Below are positions 14,906 to 62,787 of a stretch of DNA of 64,000 nucleotides, one piece after another; within the stretch, counting starts at the first letter, position 1; every line of letters starts with the position of its first letter. Below the pieces are notes generated by a model. The model was not told the DNA's origin and did no database searches. It saw nothing but the letters and a program-made list of their open reading frames with translations. This DNA comes from Plicaturopsis crispa FD-325 SS-3 (Eukaryota > Basidiomycota > Agaricomycetes > Amylocorticiales > Amylocorticiaceae). The position numbers were made by a program, and so were the translations under genes. The DNA is taken from assembly GCA_000827205.1 (NCBI GenBank), contig KN832559.1:557167-621166 (forward strand), in the 5' to 3' direction.

Positions 14906-15998
14906 TCAAGTGCCTCCATCTTCCATCATTCGCTCCGCCCAGGACTCGTTCTCGCCACGGTTAAATAACTCCACATGCACTTGCGTACGTAGCCGTTCTA
15001 CAAATGGCGCTGGGTCTTCCGATCCAAAAAGCGTGGAATCAAGGCGTAAATTCCGGACGGGTCTGCCCATCTTGACTCTAACCGTGATACAGTTCTTGAG
15101 GATGTCCTCGAAGGCATCCATCGTATTAGGAAGCCGCATGGCTGTGTGTGGTTGACGTCCTGGCCATACGCCCAGTGTGATTGTGTGTAGTTCGGGCCAT
15201 GCATCTGCAGGACTGGTTTCGGAGAAAGCTGCCACTCCATCCAAGAAATGACGGCACGCCCTGTACGGAGGAGGATCTGGAAGTACAAAGGACCTCCTAA
15301 TAAACGAGGAGCCGCGCGGAATATTGAGCTCCAGCTCTGCGACGGCCCGAGTAGCGCGGATGAAATTTCCGAACGTGTCCTTGGTGAGCGATGAACAGCA
15401 TCTAGTTTGAGCGATCGTAGGAGGGGTAACTTCGAAAGAGTCTGGGTGCAACCTGCAGTTGGACGAACCATCCGTTCGAAGACTTTCCCTTGTACATTCC
15501 TCAGCACTAGATCTTGGAGGCGCGGTGCATGGATTATCTCCAGCATGTCACGAATTGCGGTGATCGCCTCGTCCTCGGTGCCGATGAGAGTGAGGGTGTG
15601 CAATAGTGGGAGGGGCACTTGAACCCGTTCGCTGCGGAGGGCTCGTGGTAACATGATGGATCTATTGTCGAGGATGAGTTCGTACAGCAGAGGCAGCTGC
15701 TCCAGCAGCTGGCGTAGCCCGTTATAGTCCAAGGCGTTCAGGTGCGACTCATCCCACTCCCAGCTCCAGTCGTCTCCAATCTCTGAGTCGTAGCCAGAAA
15801 TACGGAACGACGTTATGGATGCGAGCGGGGGCAGAAAGACCTGCGGTGGAACACCGTGCACGTGAAAATACGATAATCGCAGTGCTCCACCCTGAAAGAG
15901 AGGCATACGTGCGTTCCCATCCACCTCGATAGGCCTTGTCGCACGCATACTGAAGCTGTGCAGGCACAGTGCCTCCGAGGCAATCTTACATTTACCTG
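14906..15998 (-). pseudogene. F-box/LRR-type gene, C-terminal half (split by a transposon)
   Basis: Read on the minus strand, the frame picks up near 15998 (IASEALCLHSFSM), continues through PLFQGGALRLSYFHVHGVPP and several leucine-rich segments (LLYELILDN, LLHTLTLIG, LLRSLKLDA), then changes frame near 15385-15400 and continues as FIRATRAVAELELNIP to a stop at 14906. It looks like the LRR-like half of the F-box proteins common in basidiomycetes, but has no F-box. The missing F-box half lies on the same strand at 22887, beyond the Plavaka element. The frame change at ~15390 has no nearby splice signal and fits decay after the split, though a sequencing error cannot be excluded. Confidence 0.75.
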
Positions 15999-16135
15999 GC
16001 GCGACTTAGGCTGTCTTGGGCCACTTTCTTCTGGATCCCCAGACGGCAAGTAGCCCAAGAGCACCAAGTCATCAAGTAGAAGTTCGAACCACATATATTG
16101 AATGATATAGAGAAGAAAGGAAAAGTAAGCTTAAA

Positions 16136-19100
16136 CTACGACTCCTCCGTAAGAAATTCATTCGTATGGTGGTCGATGTATCGGTTGACATAATAGGAGC
16201 GGAAGACGTCTAAAGTATAAGAGAAATGGAAATTTTCGGGAATAAAGGACGATCCGTAGACTCCCATGAGATGTGCGGCACGCGCAATACAGTCGAGATG
16301 GACAACGGCCATGCACCGCCGACCGTTGGCCTCGTATTCAGGCTTCACCTTCCACATCCCCGTGATGTTGTCGGGGCCCACCTCGAACGGGATGAGGTAT
16401 TCAACGAGGGCACATGGGTACTCGGTATTGCCGTGAGTGAACGAAAAGAATAGGCGAACGCGCCCGATGACCATGCCCTGCATGCTCGGTAGATCGGCGG
16501 AGGTAACGATGAACACAGTGTCGTAGCGGGCATACTCGCCTCTCCAATTGGGATTCGCACGGATACGCTCGCGGTACATGCCTCCAGCACCACAGAAGTC
16601 GCTTGGGGCATAGAAACGAGCCACAGCAGAATGGTAAACGGATATGCGGCCATGAAAACGTGGGCAATCCTCCAAAGCGACGTCGGCAGATGAGATGTTG
16701 CTCTCGGGATGCAGTTGGTCATAGAGAAAGCGCCGTAGAAGCTCCGGTAGGCGCGGCTGCTGAATATCAGCAGCGAGCGCATGGACATCAGAGCGGTAAC
16801 CACGGGCTATCATATAAAAATGAAAGGAACGATTAGCAACGTGGTACCGTGAGGGGTACGAAAGGGTACATACCAGGACATTGAGCTAGTTTAACACTAG
16901 CTGGAGTGCGTGGACCCGCAACCTCCTCGTTGTCATCGTCGTCGTGTTCTGCGATGGGAATTGGCTCAGGATGCTCCCCGGCGAGCATACGGGCCGTGTA
17001 CGACAACGTAGAGCCCGCCATCATCCCGAGCTGCTCGAAAATACGCCGAGCAGCGGCCAATTTATCGAGCCGTTGGTTTGTGAGGAGCATCTGAAGGAGG
17101 GCCTTCCATCGGCTCGATCTGCGCCACGGTTCTTTGACGGCCTTGATATGCTTCGACTCCGTGATGGAGGAGCATAGTCCATTCGGGGAGCCGAACAGGC
17201 GAATCGAAAGGACATAGTGCATCAGGGAGTGCTGACGCGGGAGCGAAATCTTGTCTTCGCGGACGCCCGCATCGATGAAGACCTGTCTCAATCCATGGAA
17301 GCGCTCAAGCGCATCCTCGAGCTGCGCGAGAGAGTCTGTGTCGAGAGCGTTGCGTCGTGCGAGGTAACAAAAATCAAGGAAAGCAGCGAGACATTGCACC
17401 ATTTTATCGGGGACATGCCCAGCAATAGCAGGAAGGTAGACCTTTGAGTTTACAAAGGGTTCAGTGGACCGTACAAGGCTCGAGCAAAAGAACAAACCTT
17501 CATAAGGGCTTTTGAGTCGTCCCCAGTCCACTGTGTGAAGTCGCGGCCATCAGGAAACCGACGAAGGCCTGGGAAAGCAGGAGCAGCGGCAATACTATCA
17601 AGATAACAGCTTAGTGCAAGAACAATCGAGTGATGAGATCTACTTACCGGCGGTCAATATCATCTATGATCTCGTGCGCACGGGCTTCGCCATGGACTAA
17701 CACTAGGTATTCGTTCACCCACGTTACGATGTGGTCCTTGAACGTTCCCTTGATAACTTGATGGAGGAGGTCGGGAGAGAGTAACTCGTGGATGTCGGCG
17801 CGCGGAAAGTCATGAGTGAAAGGCTGCGATAATGGCACTTGTTAGTAGTACTCGAAAGCCTGGCGTGTCGGAGACACTTACGACAACGTCTGCTCGGATA
17901 CCATAGTCATCCCACAGTATACCGGGATCGAACACTGAAATTGTGAAATCCGTTCTCTCCTGTGTCCGCCGCAGGGAACCTTGAGTATCAAGGTCATCGG
18001 GTCTTGCATCACATCTGCCACATGCGCAGAAACACCGTAAGTTTGCAAAAATGGCAGGCAGAATAGTAGGTTTGTGCCTCACTTTGGACACCACCCTTGC
18101 ACAATTGCTGCTAGCCAAACTTGTTCGGGATAATCGGCAATATATGGACCTAGACCGAAAATCGCACGACGGAAGTGGCCATCGGGGCACCGAACAACCT
18201 CAGGAGTTGTCATCGCGGACTTCAGGGGCTCGAAGACACGGGCAAGACATGCATGGTAGAGTTGGCGACAGAATTTCTGGTATTCTGGCCGCTTGCGATG
18301 CCTTTTTGCCGCTGCTAGAACGTTAGTACAAATAGAACACGGCAGGGAAACCGATCTTACTTTTAGGTATAGGCAGGAATGCCACGGGAAGGACACCATT
18401 CCCACGCGCTCGGCGAGCAGTGTTCGTCAGTATGCCGGGGGACATATACACCGGATGGTATTCTTGATGACCCGTTGCAACAGAGCATGTCGTTTTGTCA
18501 CTACCTGCGACAATAGGCACAAACATTGCACCGTGTGTTCGTGGATCCTCCGCAATAATGTCCTGTGAGAAAATGAGCATGGGCCTGTAACGAGAATCAC
18601 GAACTTACCGCCTGCTTCCACGACCAATCGCCGCTCATAAGATTCGAGTAAACACGTTTACCCGCCGTATTGAACTGCTGGTACGGTATGTAATTTACCT
18701 GCCCGTTGAAACCGCTGTTTTCAAGCTGGTTGCGCGCGATGACGAGGGCATCTCGCGTGCATAACTCATACTCTTCCGTCATCCACTTTGGCGGCGTCCC
18801 GCGTGGAAGAGGCCCTTGGTACCGGATTTTGACGGTCTCCCAAGGGGCATCACCACACTGGATCTCGTCAATAGTAGCGTACATTTCCTTCGCATTACTC
18901 CAGGGTGTGTCTCCGTTATACTGGAGCACACTGGCTGCCCAATGCTCGAGGGCCTGGTTGATTTCGGATTCTGAGCTTTGTGCTTGGACAAAATGGAAGT
19001 GTGCGAAGTCGAAGTCGAGGCGTGAGGAGAAAGGGTGCCATGCGTTTGCACCTTCCGCGGAGGCAGCATGCTGATCAAATGGTGGAGGAGGAGTGTGAGC

Positions 19101-19350
19101 GGGCAGAAAATCTCCCTCGGCATTGCATGGCCTCGCTAATTTGCACGGTCAACTCAAAAAGTCCCCGCACAAGAATACAATACTTACCCGTCAAATGGGT
19201 ATGATACCGGTAAGAATATTGGGCTTTGGCCGCGTCGTCGTCGGATAGAGGTGATGGTGCTCGGTGAACCGCGTTATGGTGCTGGGTCAGTCCACGCGAG
19301 CTACGGCAAACAACCGGGCAATGGGGACAAGAATAGCGAACAGAGTTCAT
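16136..19350 (-). CDS. Plavaka-like transposase, intact frame
   Basis: Nine exons on the minus strand (19350-19188, 19135-18609, 18562-18361, 18311-18083, 18014-17882, 17823-17648, 17594-17498, 17441-16874, 16806-16136) splice to 921 residues with no stop or frame change. The N-terminus is a C2H2 finger (C8, C11, H24, H29), likely DNA-binding. The transposase blocks familiar from basidiomycete Plavaka proteins follow: GDFLPAHTPPPP, DIIAEDPRTHGAMF, GLGPYIADYPEQ, DLLHQVIKGTFKDH, CSSITESKHIKAVKEPW, then a C-terminal domain with ALVEYLIPF. Plavaka belongs with the EnSpm/CMC-like transposases that cut and paste DNA in the nucleus. The introns carry standard signals; intron 3 has a TACTAAC branch site. 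Residues of the catalytic triad were not assigned. Confidence 0.9.
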
Positions 19351-19562
19351 GGAGGGGGAGAGTGTTGTATAAGTTCGCAGCGCCACGTATACGAGACCGT
19401 CGATGGAAGGGGACTTGTCAGGACAATGTTGTGGCACAAGACTCCACCCTACTTTGTCCGACACCAAATAAATCAACACAGAATATTGGACTCAGGCATT
19501 TTCAACCGCCGACCGTTTTGTGCCTTTCCCTCCCACTAAAGTCCCGCCCCTACTATACCGCC
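19351..19562. promoter_or_regulatory. Shared divergent promoter of Plavaka element 1
   Basis: The two start codons (19350 minus, 19563 plus) are separated by 212 bp, so both genes must be driven from this gap. It contains an AT-rich patch near 19465-19490. No canonical TATA or CCAAT box was confirmed. Confidence 0.6.
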
Positions 19563-21957
19563 ATGCAAAGGAGCGGCCCAACCACTCGCTCAAAGAAGCC
19601 CACAGCACCGACGGACAATTCACTCTCTCTTCCGCCCGCGGACGGCACTGCTTCTACTCCTGCCGAGGCTCCTAAGAAAAGAGCACGGGCTGCTTCGAAG
19701 GATTCTGCAACGGCTTCAGCAAAAGTTCCCCCAGCGAAAAAGATAAGGAAAGGTCGGACCAACCAGGTGGTGGCAAGTGCAGAAGCCGGCGAAAACGTAG
19801 ATGGCCCTGCGGCAGTCAAGCCAGAGCCAAAGAAGCGAGCAGTCCGTGCCCTACCTCCCAGGGACGAGCCACTACCGGAACGCACAAACCGAAATGTACA
19901 CCCGGGCGTGCCCGTGATGCCCAGGGCAAAGCGGACTTCTGCGCAAGTGGCTGCCGACAAACGCGAGCACGATGACATTGCACGCCAGATTGCGGAGCTA
20001 GAGGAGAAAAAGATGAAGCTTTTGGCCACCATGGAGCTGGCGTTCGCTAACAAGGAGGCCGAAGAACAGGGATTAGCGATAACACACATTTCGCAAGCAG
20101 CAGAGTCAACTAACCCAGTCAGCGATCCCGAAGTCGGGGCTGATGCCCTGTCCGACGTTGAAACCAGAGTTGAGGGCACCGACACTGACTTGCTTGAGAA
20201 TCCGCGAGCGGCAAAGGTTGGCAGTACAGGAGGCGAGAACATCGCCAGCGCCAACACTAGCAAGGTATCATTCAATGTTCTTCCCGTGCCTTCAACGAGG
20301 AAAAATTCGCTCACCATATCTTCAAACAGAAGAAAGGAAAGGCTAAGCGTGGAGAGACTCGGGCGGCGGTCGAAGCCATAAAGCAGAGACTTCAAAAAGC
20401 GACGGCTGGCATGACCTATGAGGAGGCGCGGGCTAAAACAGATGAATGGCAAGCGACGATGTAAGACTATCGATGCGTTGATTGTTGCTCGTTCCCACGC
20501 ATCTTGCTTACTTCCTCCTCGCTTTCCATCTAGCTCGAAAAAGGGAGCCTCGACGTCCGGGCTCGTTTCTGGCTGGGAAGCAAAGGCTAGCAAGGCGCAA
20601 GGGCACCGAACCTTGAGCCACACCAACACCGATACACGTACCGCCGGTGGAGAGATACTAGGTGGCCTCGCAGACGAGGACATCAATGCTGCGCGTCCGA
20701 ACGAAGGCTCAAAGAGTCGCGCTAACGAGGTGAGCAATTGTATGTCCAGGCCAGTCAGGAGATGTAGTATTAATGATGATCTGGATACAGCTGATTAGCT
20801 TTGTGAATTCCGAGTCTCAGCACCGCAGCGCGTCTGCATCTCGTCCAAAGCCCACCAAGACCGAAGATCACCCGTCAAAAGCTACGCTCGGTCATCTCAA
20901 GTTACGCACGACCTCCTTGACGAGCGCGCCGGCGACACCCAGTCCCTCTGGCTCTCAAGTTCTGTTATCATCTCCGGCTCATACCAACGCGGACGTCGCC
21001 CACCTGCCAGAGTTTGCGCGTGCTGCATGGTCTTCGACGTTCCTGCCGACACTTTACGCGTTCCTCGCTGCTTCGGACACCCCGTGGAGTCCCTGTCCTC
21101 GGGACCAAGATTTAGTAGCCGTCTTCCAGGAAATCGTTGATGCGTGCTGGCCCGGCACAAATTATGTTGTCAGATATAATGACAAAATATTTAACACGGC
21201 AAGTCTTCCCCGTTCATTGATTCTGTCCCAGCAGCTCACAATTCGTTGTCCCAGGCCCGCAACCGTCTCTACGACAAACGCAGCTGGATTGGCAGAAGTG
21301 CCGTGAAAGTCGTCAAGCAATTTTTCAAACAGCCAAACTGGACCGGGAATACGCATGCTATCGCGGTGTATGCGCAATATGCAAGTAGGGCGGATGGACC
21401 GGGTCTCTTCGGCGTGCCAGCACCTATCGATTCGGCACCGGGTGACGAGAACTATACGGTGAGTTGCCTTATTGTCATCCTTTTCGTAGCTAAATTATCT
21501 AACTTTGGGTCTAGAAACCAACTACCATATTCGAATCCTCGTTCATCCTCGACACACTTCACGGCTTCCTCAAGTTCACGAAGAACGCGCGCAGAGATTA
21601 CGGTCGTCCGAAGGGTGCACTCGCACTCAGTGCAGCCGCGGTAAGAGTCGTATCATGAGCTGTTTTCGCGTTGTCTGATTGCTTCCAAAGGTCGAGCGTG
21701 CGTTCCGTATGTTCCACAGTGGAACACAGGTCGATATCGGCCAGTTCAGCAAAGACACTGTTGGTGTCATGACGAGCGACTACATGACGTTAGCCAAGAA
21801 GCTAACCGCGAGACGCTGGGGCATCATTCTTCCTTTGAACGATGATGCCAGTGGGATTACGGAGACACCCATGAAGGCAGCCAGTACGCTCTCGCTTCAG
21901 CAGGCCCGCCGTGATCTCTACGAGCCCAGTAGCCCCCTGCCCGAGGACTCTGATTAA
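19563..21957 (+). CDS. Plavaka partner protein (second gene of element 1)
   Basis: Seven exons (19563-20264, 20330-20460, 20534-20729, 20791-21198, 21255-21458, 21515-21640, 21691-21957) give 677 residues. The first ~170 residues are Lys/Arg/Pro-rich, suggesting nuclear or nucleic-acid contact. A coiled coil follows (IARQIAELEEKKMKLLATME). The C-terminal half is globular, with FLPTLYAFLAASDTPW, WIGRSAVKVVKQFFK and ALALSAAAVERAFRMF. Intron 4 starts with GC instead of GT (21199-21254). I recall similar unnamed proteins next to Plavaka genes in other mushrooms, but I do not know the function; a role with the transposase, such as end recognition or regulation, is inferred from the shared promoter only. 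Confidence 0.8.
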
Positions 21958-22443
21958 TGGTGAGCCTTTCCTGGCAGTCTCGTACCGCTCGTGTCCATTA
22001 ACCCTATACCGAATCAGGTCCAATCCGATACAATCCATCTATTTTGCAGTTTTTTCCGCGTCCTTCCTCTCACAACCGTGCGCTCTCTGTTCGTCGTGCC
22101 CCCGTGCACCTTCCACTCCTTCACGACCGACTCGGACTATACCCACCCCTTGCCGTTTCCTTTAATCTCAACCTGCTTATTTGCTAAGTGCTGTTTAATT
22201 GCTGCTTAGAATCCTCGTTATTCATCGGTCCCGTCGTCCATCTTGATTTCGCACCGCGATCAAAGTAATTACCGTGATCTATTTTCTAATGATTTATACC
22301 TACTGTCGCTACTGTTCGTCTTGCATGTCTTGCATCTTGCCAGGTCTTGGTCTCGTTTATTTCACAATAAAAATGTCGTCTGACAAAAAAACGGACCTAC
22401 CTTGGGACTTTCGGGTCTGGAGCGCTTGGCCCTACTTACAAGA
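21958..22443. other. 3' flank of Plavaka element 1
   Basis: AT-rich and pyrimidine-rich sequence after the partner gene stop, ending in the presumed right terminal region of the transposon. No gene is seen. Confidence 0.45.
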
Positions 22444-22473
22444 CTTGTACAAGCTTGTACAAGCTTGTACAAG
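22444..22473. repeat. Three perfect copies of a 10-bp palindrome
   Basis: CTTGTACAAG is repeated three times head to tail without a mismatch. It sits at the boundary between the transposon and the F-box half gene. Confidence 0.95.
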
Positions 22474-22887
22474 ATGGCCAAGACGGATGTAGGAATACTG
22501 ATGTCCTGCGTGGACGATGGGCCAAAGTATGCCATGTAGGTCAATCAGACTGGCGACGTGGACGTAGAGGGTACGCCATCGCGCGATGCAGATAGGGTCG
22601 TAAATCACCGGACGAAGCCACGCGTCTGAGGGAGGGCTAAACATGAACACGTCAAGGGGGCGTTGCTGCGACCGATCCAGGTAGAGCGCAATCAAGTGTG
22701 GAGATGTGAATGGATGAATGCCGTGGCATATCGTAGTCCACAGCGAGGACGTGCCAATGGCAACGGAACGCCAATGGCTGGTGACGTGGGATATTCGGAG
22801 GGGGTACAAAAACTGGGCGACAAGTGGCTCATTGCGATGACTGTTTGCCCCGGCCTCGAATATGAGGGATAGCAGCTCATTGGGCAT
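22474..22887 (-). pseudogene. F-box gene, N-terminal half (split by a transposon)
   Basis: From the ATG at 22887 the minus strand reads MPNELLSLIFEA..., a standard F-box start (LPxELLxxIF), followed by ISHVTSHWRSVAIGTSSLWTTI, the next conserved part of basidiomycete F-box proteins, and RWRTLYVHV. The frame then runs into the CTTGTACAAG repeat and stops. No LRR part follows; the matching half is at 15998-14906. The true protein may begin somewhat upstream in another exon (minus-strand frame around 23101-22960), which was not resolved. Confidence 0.75.
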
Positions 22888-57986: not shown

Positions 57987-59770
57987 CATCAGGAAAAACC
58001 CATATCACAAATCTAATCTAATTTGTGGTAGATTTTGTACAAACGACGCAAATCAAAGAAAACTGTCAAAACGCCGTGAATTGGCACTAACTCTACGTGA
58101 ATTGGCACGGAGCGCAAGTAACTGTACTGAGTCCTTACATTTTCGAGTCGTATCCAACCTTATCCAATGACCATGATACCGTACACACAAGATGATAACA
58201 ATGAATACTAAGGAAATGAACGCACAATGGATGTATAAACAGAAAGGGCAGACATTACTTGAGTTTCCGAATCCTTGTGTTGCTTCCCGTGCGCCTGTCG
58301 TGCACTTTGCTCCTGTGAACAACCTGGGGATGTTGTTGCGATGCGTGAAAGCCAACGTAGACCCGCGCTGTAGCCTGGCCCATTGTCGAGGCATTGGGCC
58401 TGCTCACCCGTTGACGCTTAGGCCGCTACGAACTCGCGTTAACGTTAAACAGCGAGCCTGAATAATGGACGCTGGCTGCGCTCTTGCGTGTCATATCTGA
58501 ACGGCGAGGGCGAGGAGGCCAGGAGTCGTGCTATCGTGCCGTGGAGAGGGCAGGCCAGGCGCATATGCGCGTACAAAGCGCCGGCAAGCTGGTGGGAGTG
58601 AGCGAGGTTCCGAGGATGAGCACAAAGAGTTGGTCGTGGTAGGACAACAAGGGCGCACCTGATAGATACAAAGTCCCGTATATTCACCCGTTCCTGTTGT
58701 TGATCTCGATCTTGTCGCCTATCGTCGTTCATGAGGGCTGAGGCCGTGTGGTCGCGTACCACGTAGAGTTGGCCGGGCGATTGTCGAGACTTGGTCGAGA
58801 CTGAGAGTTCGAGAAAGTTCTGTACAATTCAAGCTCCGACCGAATATTAATATAAATTAACTGACGCGTCACGTCGTTTCCGTTTCTCTCGCATGCCCCA
58901 CCATCGTCGAATGCCAACTTAGTGCCAACTGCGCGCCCTTATCGTTCAAACCCGCTGCGTCTTTTCGCCGTCCCTTTCATGGCGGTGGCATCCACCCTCT
59001 ATGCTCTCACAATTCTACTCGGGCTTGCTGCGCTGTCTTTTCACGCGCGACTCGCTTGATTTTTAGGTGCCACACAGGAAGGACTAGGACCGCCGGAGGC
59101 ATTCTTGGCCGGTGCGAGAACACGACACAGGTGAGTGCTGGCGTCGTGTCAGTCATTACGCGTATTGACGGCTCGTTCTCGCACCCCCACTAGCGCCCCA
59201 TGACGTCCCGCCCAGTGTTCCACGCGCAGACGCCGCAACGCCACGGTATCATGCGGCCACTCGGTAGGTTACATCGCGAGCTCGTCAATACCGGCCACCA
59301 CTAATGCTGTGTAGGTATCAAGTAATGTTTGTCTGCCCGTGTAGCTCCTTCTGCCTTCCTGTGCATTCATCTGTGAGCTCATTTCCATCTTAAACCCCCT
59401 GCTATGTATGCTCATATTTTGTGTCAGTGTCTGAGTCCAAGGTTTCTCAACTGCTTAGAGCTATGATAGTGGAAGGGTGGGATAGGCCATAGCTTAGCTG
59501 TCTGTATGTAGATAGTCAAATGCGATTGATTTTGTATTGTCTTGAATGTGCAGTTTCGGTCAATAAGAGGAAAAGTAGATAACAAAGTCAGGTGAAATAG
59601 GACAGATTTTATTAAGATTGACGGATATTTGATGTGAATCTGCACGAATTCGCAACAAACTCGAGGAAGATTTTTTGGACCTCCCGGATTTCAAGAATGA
59701 ATGAATTTTCATGAATTTGCATGAATTATCGGGAATTCGTGCAAATTCGGGATACAGGTTTTTCCTGATG
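57987..59770. mobile_element. Non-autonomous TIR DNA transposon, 1,784 bp, nested in Plavaka 2
   Basis: The ends are a perfect 14-bp inverted repeat, CATCAGGAAAAACC at 57987-58000 and its complement at 59757-59770. AC flanks both sides (57985-57986, 59771-59772), consistent with a 2-bp target duplication. The host transposase frame (ESIAR on one side, SVYLEWCKG on the other) is in register once the insertion is allowed for, which fixes the ends independently. Subterminal repeats are visible: CGTGAATTGGCAC twice at the left (58075, 58096) and TGCACGAATTC with its inverse at the right (59641, 59733). No transposase frame is present. A short TSD and CA termini suggest a CMC/EnSpm-like origin, but the superfamily is uncertain. 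Confidence 0.88.
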
Positions 59771-60468
59771 ACCGGGCGATCGACTCCTGGCGACGAAGCC
59801 AAGTCGTCATCTGGTGGACGTAGTCCTTCTTGTTGCTAGCTCGGTATGCATCCTTGGCGTAATCGATATGCAAGCGTTCCGGAGACTCCGTGCTGAACCC
59901 ATCCGCCGACCCAAAAAGCTCAATCAAGTCGACATAGTGCTCCATCATATGAATTTTGGGAATATTAAAGTGAGTCTGCTCCCTCGCCCCGAGTTCGATG
60001 AATATGTCCTTGTTGGCGTGGAAGTCGTCGAGTGCGCATCGAAGGGCTACGAGCGTCTTGGATGTGTGCGAATGGAGAGACGCGTAGTAGATGAAGTCGA
60101 TGGCGGCACGGACGGCCTTGATGACACGGGGATCTGCGCGCCCAATGACAAGCCCCAGGAACACCTTCTCCATCTCTTTATGCTCGTGCCCGGTCCACTG
60201 GGATACTGACGATATGCCGTTTTTGAAGTGACGGAGCCCAGGGAACGGTGTCATGGCTCGAAATCGCGCATCAAGCTCCGCCTCGCCGACAACTTTTGTG
60301 CACCACTTGACGAGGTGATCTTTGAAGACGCCTTTGTGGAGCTGGTGGAGGAGGTCCGGGGTAAATCCTTGGAAAATGTCGGCGTATGGCAGGTTTGCCC
60401 AGAATGGAGGGTAGACAGGACGTAGTCCGAGCGTATGAAAGTTGGCGTTGAAATCAGGGTCGCGTAAG

Positions 60469-61077
60469 TGTAAGAACCGGGCCACTCGCAATGAACCCAG
60501 AACCACTGAGCCAAAAGGCCACAATATCAGGTTACTGATATTAGTTTGCGAGCGCTATATATGTTGATCGCACAGTTCAATCCCCTTTAACCAGTAGAAT
60601 GGTCGGTTCATGACAGTACCCCCCCTGCAAGGGCTGAGCCCTCGAAGCCCCTGTGACATATATACAAGACCCCCACGATTGCTCATGTAAGCCATCGGAA
60701 CCCAGAGACCCCATTTGTCATGGTTTGGGCAGTTATTGGTGCCCAAAGTGCCCGAATTTGGAATCGGGTGGACACCTCACATAACCTTGTTTCTTATTCC
60801 CAGGCCACCGGACGGAACCGGAAGAATAGAGGGGCCCACGGTACTCCGTGTCTCGCATGGAAGCGGAGAATTTTGGGGAAACAAGTGACACCATGGGGAG
60901 TTGAACCGATGACCTTGGAACCTGATATTCTGTAAGAACCGGGCCACTCGCAATGAACCCAGAACCACTGAGCCAAAAGGCCACAATATCAGGTTACTGA
61001 TATTAGTTTGCGAGCGCTATATATGTTGATCGCACAGTTCAATCCCCTTTAACCAGTAGAATGGTCGGTTCATGACA
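60469..61077 (-). mobile_element. TRIM-type LTR fossil, 609 bp, nested in Plavaka 2
   Basis: Two 147-bp direct repeats (60469-60615 and 60931-61077) are identical base for base, start TG and end CA, and are flanked by a 5-bp target duplication GTAAG (60464-60468, 61078-61082). The internal part is only 315 bp and noncoding, which fits a terminal-repeat retrotransposon in miniature. On the minus strand a G7 purine tract (60616-60628) abuts the downstream repeat as a polypurine tract should, so the element is read in that direction. It looks structurally whole, has no genes of its own, and identical repeats indicate a recent insertion. A tRNA-type box A and box B are also present (see findings). 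Confidence 0.92.
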
Positions 61078-62593
61078 GTAAGTTCTGTGCGTCTAGGTTG
61101 CTGCGGTGTTGCAAAAATGCGAGCGTCTCCCGGGTGTCTCGTTTCTGGCATGGTGCGTGTGTTCCCCTTTCATCAGGGTGCACTTTACCGATAGGGCATC
61201 GGTTTTCCATGCAGCAGGAGACCAAGCATTGCTCTGGATAGTCCGCAACATAGGCAGCAAAAATTGGCCAAACCCAGCGGTTCATACCGTCTGCGCAGGT
61301 CATCTCTTTGCCTGTCCTTCCGGCCTCGGCGACGGTGCGAAGAAGCCGGCTCATGCAGTAATGGAACAGCCCGTATTTCGTGACGGATCGTGTCTTATCA
61401 CTGCAGCAGTCCAGTTTGGCGATGGGAAGGTACCCAATTAAAACCGTAGCATGGCTGGATGCCTGCCGTCGAACGTCTTTCGCTATGTTGCCTATCGTCA
61501 AGTACACGGGCCACGCGCTCTTGTCCCCTCGGAACTGCGACAGTCGTGTCTTGTCCGATGACAAGATAAGCGGGGCAATTGTCGCGCCAGTAGGCAGTTG
61601 CTCCTAATCACAGTCAGTCGGTAGTCGCTTTTTCATGTTCTGTATTTAACTGACCTGTAGTTTCCACCACCAGTTCGCCGTCCACATCTCATTTATGACT
61701 TTGTTCTCGCGAGCTTCATCTGCGAACAGCTGCTCGGGAGCGTATTCCATGACATCTCGGAAAGCTGGATTCCCCATGAGTTCGCGTACACATTCGACGG
61801 GATCGCGGAACCACATCTCAAGAGTTTCGCTTCGAGTTTGGCCATCGTCGTCAAGTAAGTCGCCTTGTACGTGTACGTCTTCACATTTCCAATCGATTCC
61901 TCCAGGAAGGTCGTCAATATCGTCCAATAGAGCGCCTTTATTGTGGTAGGCAGGGTTGACACGGCGCTGTATCTACGATCGGAGGTAAGCTCACGCCGAA
62001 TCCATTGCTCGATGGTGGGAGCAAATCGAATGACGTACGATTGGCATTTTTAGGAAGGCTTCTGCCTGGTTGTGCCCAACGTTCTGCATGAGCCACTTCG
62101 CTAGTTCCCATTCCTCTTCGTCGACAAATGGACCCCAAATTTCTGCTCCTCGCAAGACCTGATCGTCACGGATTCTTTCGAACGACGTCTGGGATGATCC
62201 AAAAGTCTGCCCTGCACATTTTCCTGCCGGAAATCCGTCTCTCCAGCACATTGAATCATCATCCTCCACCTCCTCTATGCGCGGATTTGGCCGGCTAGCG
62301 TCCTGGTCCACTAATGGCTCCTCCTCGGGGTCATCCTGCTGCAGCATGCCAGGTAATGGATAATCATTGTGAGCACGTTCATCCTGGGCTTGCATGGCAT
62401 CTGAATCCGCTGATACTCCATTATCCACAGAGGCTGTAGCGGCCTCCGACGCCACCTTATTGGATTGGCGCTGCGCGTAAAGCCTCTGCAGCCATTCATC
62501 TCGACGACGGCGACAGATAGGTGCTTGACTTTGATGCTGGTGCATGCTCTTGAAAGTGCGGAAGAACGAACGGCAGTATGTGCATTGAGGCAT

Positions 62594-62787
62594 TTTCGGT
62601 TCGAGAATGATGGGCACTGAGACAGAGGACTTAGACAGATTTTCGTTGAATTTGCCCACCTGTGCCGCGCGTTCGGCCGCTCGTGTACGGTCGGAACTCT
62701 AATTTCATCTTTTTTTCCCTCAAAACCTCGCCGTGTCGTTCGTTGCTTGCCTTTTCCTCCACTTCCATCAACCTCTTAATTTTTACC
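62594..62787. promoter_or_regulatory. Shared divergent promoter of Plavaka element 2
   Basis: 194 bp separate the transposase start (62593, minus) from the start of the plus-strand gene (62788), the same divergent layout as element 1. No TATA box was confirmed. Confidence 0.55.

Follow-up and report, generated by a model that had tools for sequence, protein, structure and literature searches.

The window analysed here, a stretch of 64,000 nucleotides (C6:557167-621166) from a genome of 33.2 Mb and 49 contigs, probably carries a Plavaka transposon of low copy number, with two genes and PlavakaB-like ends, which was inserted into a presumably F-box-like gene and encodes a transposase and a putative DNA-binding accessory protein (Table 1). 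The element itself is of a known kind; the part worth following is that a second gene and a palindrome array at a fixed position accompany Plavaka. We tentatively propose that DUF6532-type genes may be the usual second gene of Plavaka, and that their products might be DNA-binding accessories whose docking sites are the palindrome arrays placed at a constant subterminal distance, which would make the pair a fungal equivalent of plant TNPA/TNPD. If true, this would give a testable task to a fungal domain of unknown function, together with a candidate binding site. The preliminary description had placed the element at 16000-22450, which clips both of its ends; these relatives and the host gene place at the limits given in Table 1. 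The window was also scanned for Rfam families and tRNAs, with no matches.

Table 1. Features of the element and of the interrupted host gene (positions in the window)
Feature	Position	Strand	Description
Whole element	15979..22503		6525 bp, left end damaged, right end CTGATG; basis: ends of C23, C12 and C7, and host-gene frame test
Two bases in place of the relatives' 2-bp target duplication and CATCAG	15979..15980		Left terminus missing
Left subterminal region	15981..16135		Matches C23 beginning with the base that directly follows CATCAG; CAAG motifs scattered
Plavaka transposase gene	16136..19350	minus	Spliced prediction: ATG 19350, stop ending 16136, 9 exons, 8 introns, 921 aa; D252, D357, C372, C375, H580, E604 conserved
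Gap between divergent start codons	19351..19562		212 bp
Partner gene	19563..21957	plus	Spliced prediction: ATG 19563, stop ending 21957, 7 exons, 6 introns, 677 aa; N-terminal part basic; C-terminal domain with sub-threshold DUF6532 match
Palindrome array	22444..22473		Three head-to-tail CTTGTACAAG; 40 bp between start of final unit and right end
Right terminus CTGATG	22498..22503		Agrees with relatives
Host gene (presumably F-box-like), first half	22504..22882	minus	From MPNELLSLIF; no Pfam match
Host gene (presumably F-box-like), second half	14906..15978	minus	Frameshift relative to 5/5 paralogs

The transposase is a clear member of the Plavaka family: its match to PF18759 scores 431.5 bits against a cut-off of 26.3 (E = 2.7e-129) and covers the profile from end to end (1-325 of 325). 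Donor sites were picked by eye and acceptors ranked by script, and the splice sites are thus predictions. The gene model is better than chance because C23, C12 and C7, the closest copies aligned, all share its eight intron positions (residues 55, 230, 298, 374, 418, 477, 509 and 699), and in these copies our own spliced aligner found zero stops and zero frameshifts in the transposase. On these grounds we retain the nine exons and the open frame of the preliminary description. Amino-acid identity to the window copy is 79.6% for C23, 70.1% for C12 and 68.3% for C7, with replacement-site differences (pN) of 0.13, 0.20 and 0.21, respectively. Silent sites are saturated in the same comparisons (pS of 0.78, 0.81 and 0.82), so that no dN/dS can be obtained from them. 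The transposase appears to be under purifying selection. D252, D357, C372, C375, H580 and E604 are present in nine of nine aligned transposase copies, the window one included, and H584, which forms the H(3)H pair with H580, is kept in eight of nine. Judged by the alignment, D252, D357, C372/C375, H580/H584 and E604 are the candidate catalytic residues. The transposase alignments of C9, C8, C10, C17 and C1 are rough (C10 shows false introns, C9 frameshifts and C1 a stop) and served for the motif residues only.

The seven exons of the partner gene also join into one open frame, and both this claim and that of a 212-bp gap between the two divergent starts are upheld. The C23 partner is 49.5% identical, shows no disruption, and shares the six introns within one residue, including the GC-AG intron at 21199-21254, whose C23 counterpart, placed at an identical residue, has GT as its donor. 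The C12 partner is 37.5% identical, in an alignment that contains a frameshift and two additional introns of doubtful status, and the C7 partner gives clear profile matches (best E of 2e-23). Some 9 kb of other DNA apparently separates two parts of this C7 gene (C7, approximately 288751-297973). Conservation is highest in the C-terminal part (for C23, 60% vs 37-47% elsewhere; for C12, 43% vs 29-40%). The window protein has a weak match to DUF6532 (PF20149), colinear over most of the domain, of 13.8 bits for the whole protein (E = 0.054) and 16.2 bits for the domain (E = 0.01), which is below the curated cut-off of 24 and leaves it outside the family as curated. The C12 partner reaches 23.6 of the 24 bits (E = 5.3e-5); the C23 partner has no match to the Pfam profile, nor have six single-exon pieces of the C7, C10 and C12 partners. 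Near the C10 copy, the expected partner position holds a weak partner match (E = 0.0065) with no DUF6532 match. In C8 and C9 the domains are clearly DUF6532 (E = 1e-53 and 6.7e-51); convincing ends were not found for these two elements of the DUF6532 group. Direct comparison of the partner profile with that of DUF6532 is weak (probability 12.6%, E = 0.0023). Partner and DUF6532, which occupy equal positions beside Plavaka, are likely to be one family. A comparison of the partner domain with solved structures gave one weak match (E = 0.057), which we took as chance.

The association with Plavaka extends across the genome. Profile matches were merged by eye, from 84 pieces to 37 loci for PF18759, from 35 to 16 for PF20149, and from 16 to four for the partner, and the resulting counts are lower bounds. 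Of at least 20 partner/DUF6532 loci, at least 16 have a Plavaka locus no more than 15 kb away, 15 of the 16 in divergent orientation (binomial P = 5e-20). Divergent pairs are spaced by 2.3-3.9 kb, with a single exception at 11.7 kb, and the layout of C23, C12 and C7 is identical to that of the window element. Among the Plavaka loci, at least 37 in number, 16 have a partner/DUF6532 neighbour and 21 have none at the thresholds used. The DUF6532 loci with no Plavaka match inside 15 kb (C7:1583981, C5:1955072, C10:544813 and C5:300551) may be remnants or host genes. The window holds a second Plavaka transposase locus on the minus strand, at 59709-62698, where PF18759 is matched twice (59.7-60.6 kb; 61.1-61.9 kb). 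Just beyond the window end (C6:621523-622156), and divergent from this locus, lies a DUF6532 match. Both domains are listed for two Ganoderma genomes, unlinked, in the accessible text of PMC8955403; our literature search, which covered the main text of openly accessible articles, found no statement linking them in the text available.

The partner-side terminus of the four related elements, and this side only, carries 10-bp palindromes of the form [CG]TTGYRCAAG, three or four per element. The window array recurs unit for unit in C23; C12 has four variants, and C7 has three units, two of which begin with G. In the window, C23, C12 and C7 the start of the last unit is 40, 40, 40 and 41 bp inside the right terminus. 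A genome-wide search for the triple array with at most two mismatches recovers these four loci and C8:334353 (zero in the backward control), and a two-unit search adds C3:1341-1360, with one mismatch, which is absent from the triple-array search. A single unit occurs at C10:938238. The array at C8:334353-334382 (L036) is of the same kind and perhaps belongs to a remnant or a non-autonomous relative: neither a transposase nor a partner match accompanies it, CTGATG is absent from its surroundings, and a TGATG lies about 100 bp further. CTTG is enriched in the last 250-280 bp, array included, a level that is reached by 0 of 500 shuffles for the window, 0 of 500 for C12 and 20 of 500 for C23. Enrichment of CAAG at the left end is weaker (13, 1 and 24 of 500 shuffles, in the same order).

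These features suggest a division of labour in which the transposase would cut the ends by DDE chemistry, and the partner would bind the palindrome array and so assemble or regulate the transposition complex, by analogy with TNPA in En/Spm. According to the accessible text of PMC2613891, the subterminal repeats of that CACTA element are bound by TNPA, which is needed together with TNPD. The two systems share 1) a transposase accompanied by a second element-encoded protein and 2) repeated motifs just inside the ends. They differ in that the proteins come from two divergent genes here and from alternative splicing in En/Spm (PMC2613891), and in that the array is here at one end and its binding putative. 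The transposase has an N-terminal C2H2-like finger of its own, kept in C23, C12 and C7, and might itself bind the array, leaving the partner with another task or none, for instance as a captured host gene; the four of 20 partner/DUF6532 loci away from Plavaka would also fit. We regard this as rather unlikely, as the place, strand and introns of the partner are kept beside Plavaka in diverged copies, which is unexpected for a passenger. A host factor might also be what binds the array.

Another comparison is with VANDAL elements and their protein VANC, whose targets are often tandem repeats (PMC5735166, accessible text). There too the second protein evolves fast and the motifs are tandem and noncoding; here the partner of C23 is 49.5% identical to that of the window, against 79.6% for the transposase. 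The partner could then be an anti-silencing protein, binding the array to remove silencing marks and not for cutting. This is unlikely in our judgement. The CpG observed/expected ratio of the element (1.06) is like that of its flanks (1.05 and 1.11), and therefore bears no trace of methylation decay. Unlike in VANDAL, the array keeps a fixed distance from the end, 40-41 bp in all four elements, as expected of a transpososome site. We also take the VANDAL transposase to belong to another superfamily than Plavaka. Docking of the partner on the array as part of the transposition machinery is the reading that we consider more probable.

The relatives define what the ends of the window element should look like. 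C23 has ends CATCAGCAATCT...TTTCCTGATG flanked by TA on both sides, C12 has CATCAGCAATCT...ATTACTGATG flanked by CA, and C7 has CAGATCAGCAAG...ATACTGATG flanked by CT, its left end being a variant; these 2-bp duplications surround both genes in each copy. PlavakaB elements have ends CATCA..TGATG and 2-3-bp duplications (Kojima 2025, PMC12730594, accessible text). C23 and C12 have both of these ends, whereas the window copy has only the right one: its left-hand match to C23 begins at CAATCT (15981), and in the one assembly at hand two bases appear to occupy the place of the outer CATCAG, which C23 and C12 have, and of the target duplication on the left. A search for terminal repeats between the two flanks of the window copy found nothing, which the comparison with C23 explains. 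The earlier term "intact transposon" is not supported: we class the window copy as damaged, related to a PlavakaB-type family rather than a full member of it. The PF18759 transposase and the TGATG right end are as in PlavakaB, as are the CATCA end and 2-bp duplications of the relatives. The missing left end sets the window copy apart from it, and neither a partner gene nor a palindrome array is mentioned for Plavaka in the accessible text of PMC12730594. The Pfam matches of the two proteins include no TET/JBP domain, another difference from the PlavakaB families.

The interrupted host gene, which we take to be F-box-like from its sequence, allows the break to be placed. Its two halves, on the minus strand, have their matches in common, at four paralog loci of which C1 holds two and C8 and C11 one each. 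Joining 22504 directly to 15978 requires no frameshift at the join for five of five paralogs, whereas removal of a 2-bp duplication requires one within 63 nt, again for all five. Total scores favour the direct join for four paralogs; L015 slightly prefers the duplication-removed join (325.5 vs 322.5), and for L018 a third cut scores practically the same (376.5 vs 376.0). Our first reading, a TC duplication (15974-15975, identical to the right flank) with a changed left end (CGAGG), holds only if the host frame is ignored, and the frame test disfavours it relative to a small deletion. The same TC, and the intact rest of the element, could be invoked to argue that the transposon is complete and mobile and that its left end was lost in an assembly error. 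This is improbable: for five of five paralogs the host frame stays open across a join that has neither the six terminal bases nor the duplication, and the contig is otherwise continuous there. One may speculate that a small deletion across the left cleavage site fits a failed one-ended excision. For Marasmius oreades, the accessible text of PMC9674265 describes a Plavaka element with a deletion that did not resemble an excision. The far half of the host gene has a frameshift 582-678 nt in, in all five paralog comparisons, which implies that the insertion is not brand new, although the gene is still recognisable. A second frameshift, 406-437 nt before the join and near the N-terminal start, is found in all five and may be an exon border; two more appear with L018 and one more with L015.

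The coding capacity of both genes had been read as a mark of recent or ongoing activity, which the copy number does not bear out. The genome search for near-identical copies proposed at that stage was run, and none was found among the best-scored candidates of this own-genome DNA search, the nearest being 70% identical over about 3 kb; silent sites between the compared copies are saturated. There is no sign of a recent burst. The open frames argue for selection on both proteins until not long ago, yet open frames alone do not make a mobile transposon when one end is gone, a point that corrects a likely over-reading. The window copy itself would no longer be excisable, and both of its proteins may still be supplied in trans. 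Plavaka is among the superfamilies with more expressed families in Rhizophagus (PMC11075540, accessible text). That single-copy, conserved proteins beside a lost end reflect a domesticated gene pair serving the host while its ends decay is very improbable, given that the disrupted host gene is still recognisable, so that the insertion is not ancient, and that the relatives retain both ends and their duplications.

At about 10.1-11.0 kb and 13.1-14.8 kb of the window lie two similar genes, neighbours of each other, on the plus strand. One exon of each was compared with Pfam, with no match, and from a sequence motif both genes are presumably cytochrome P450s.
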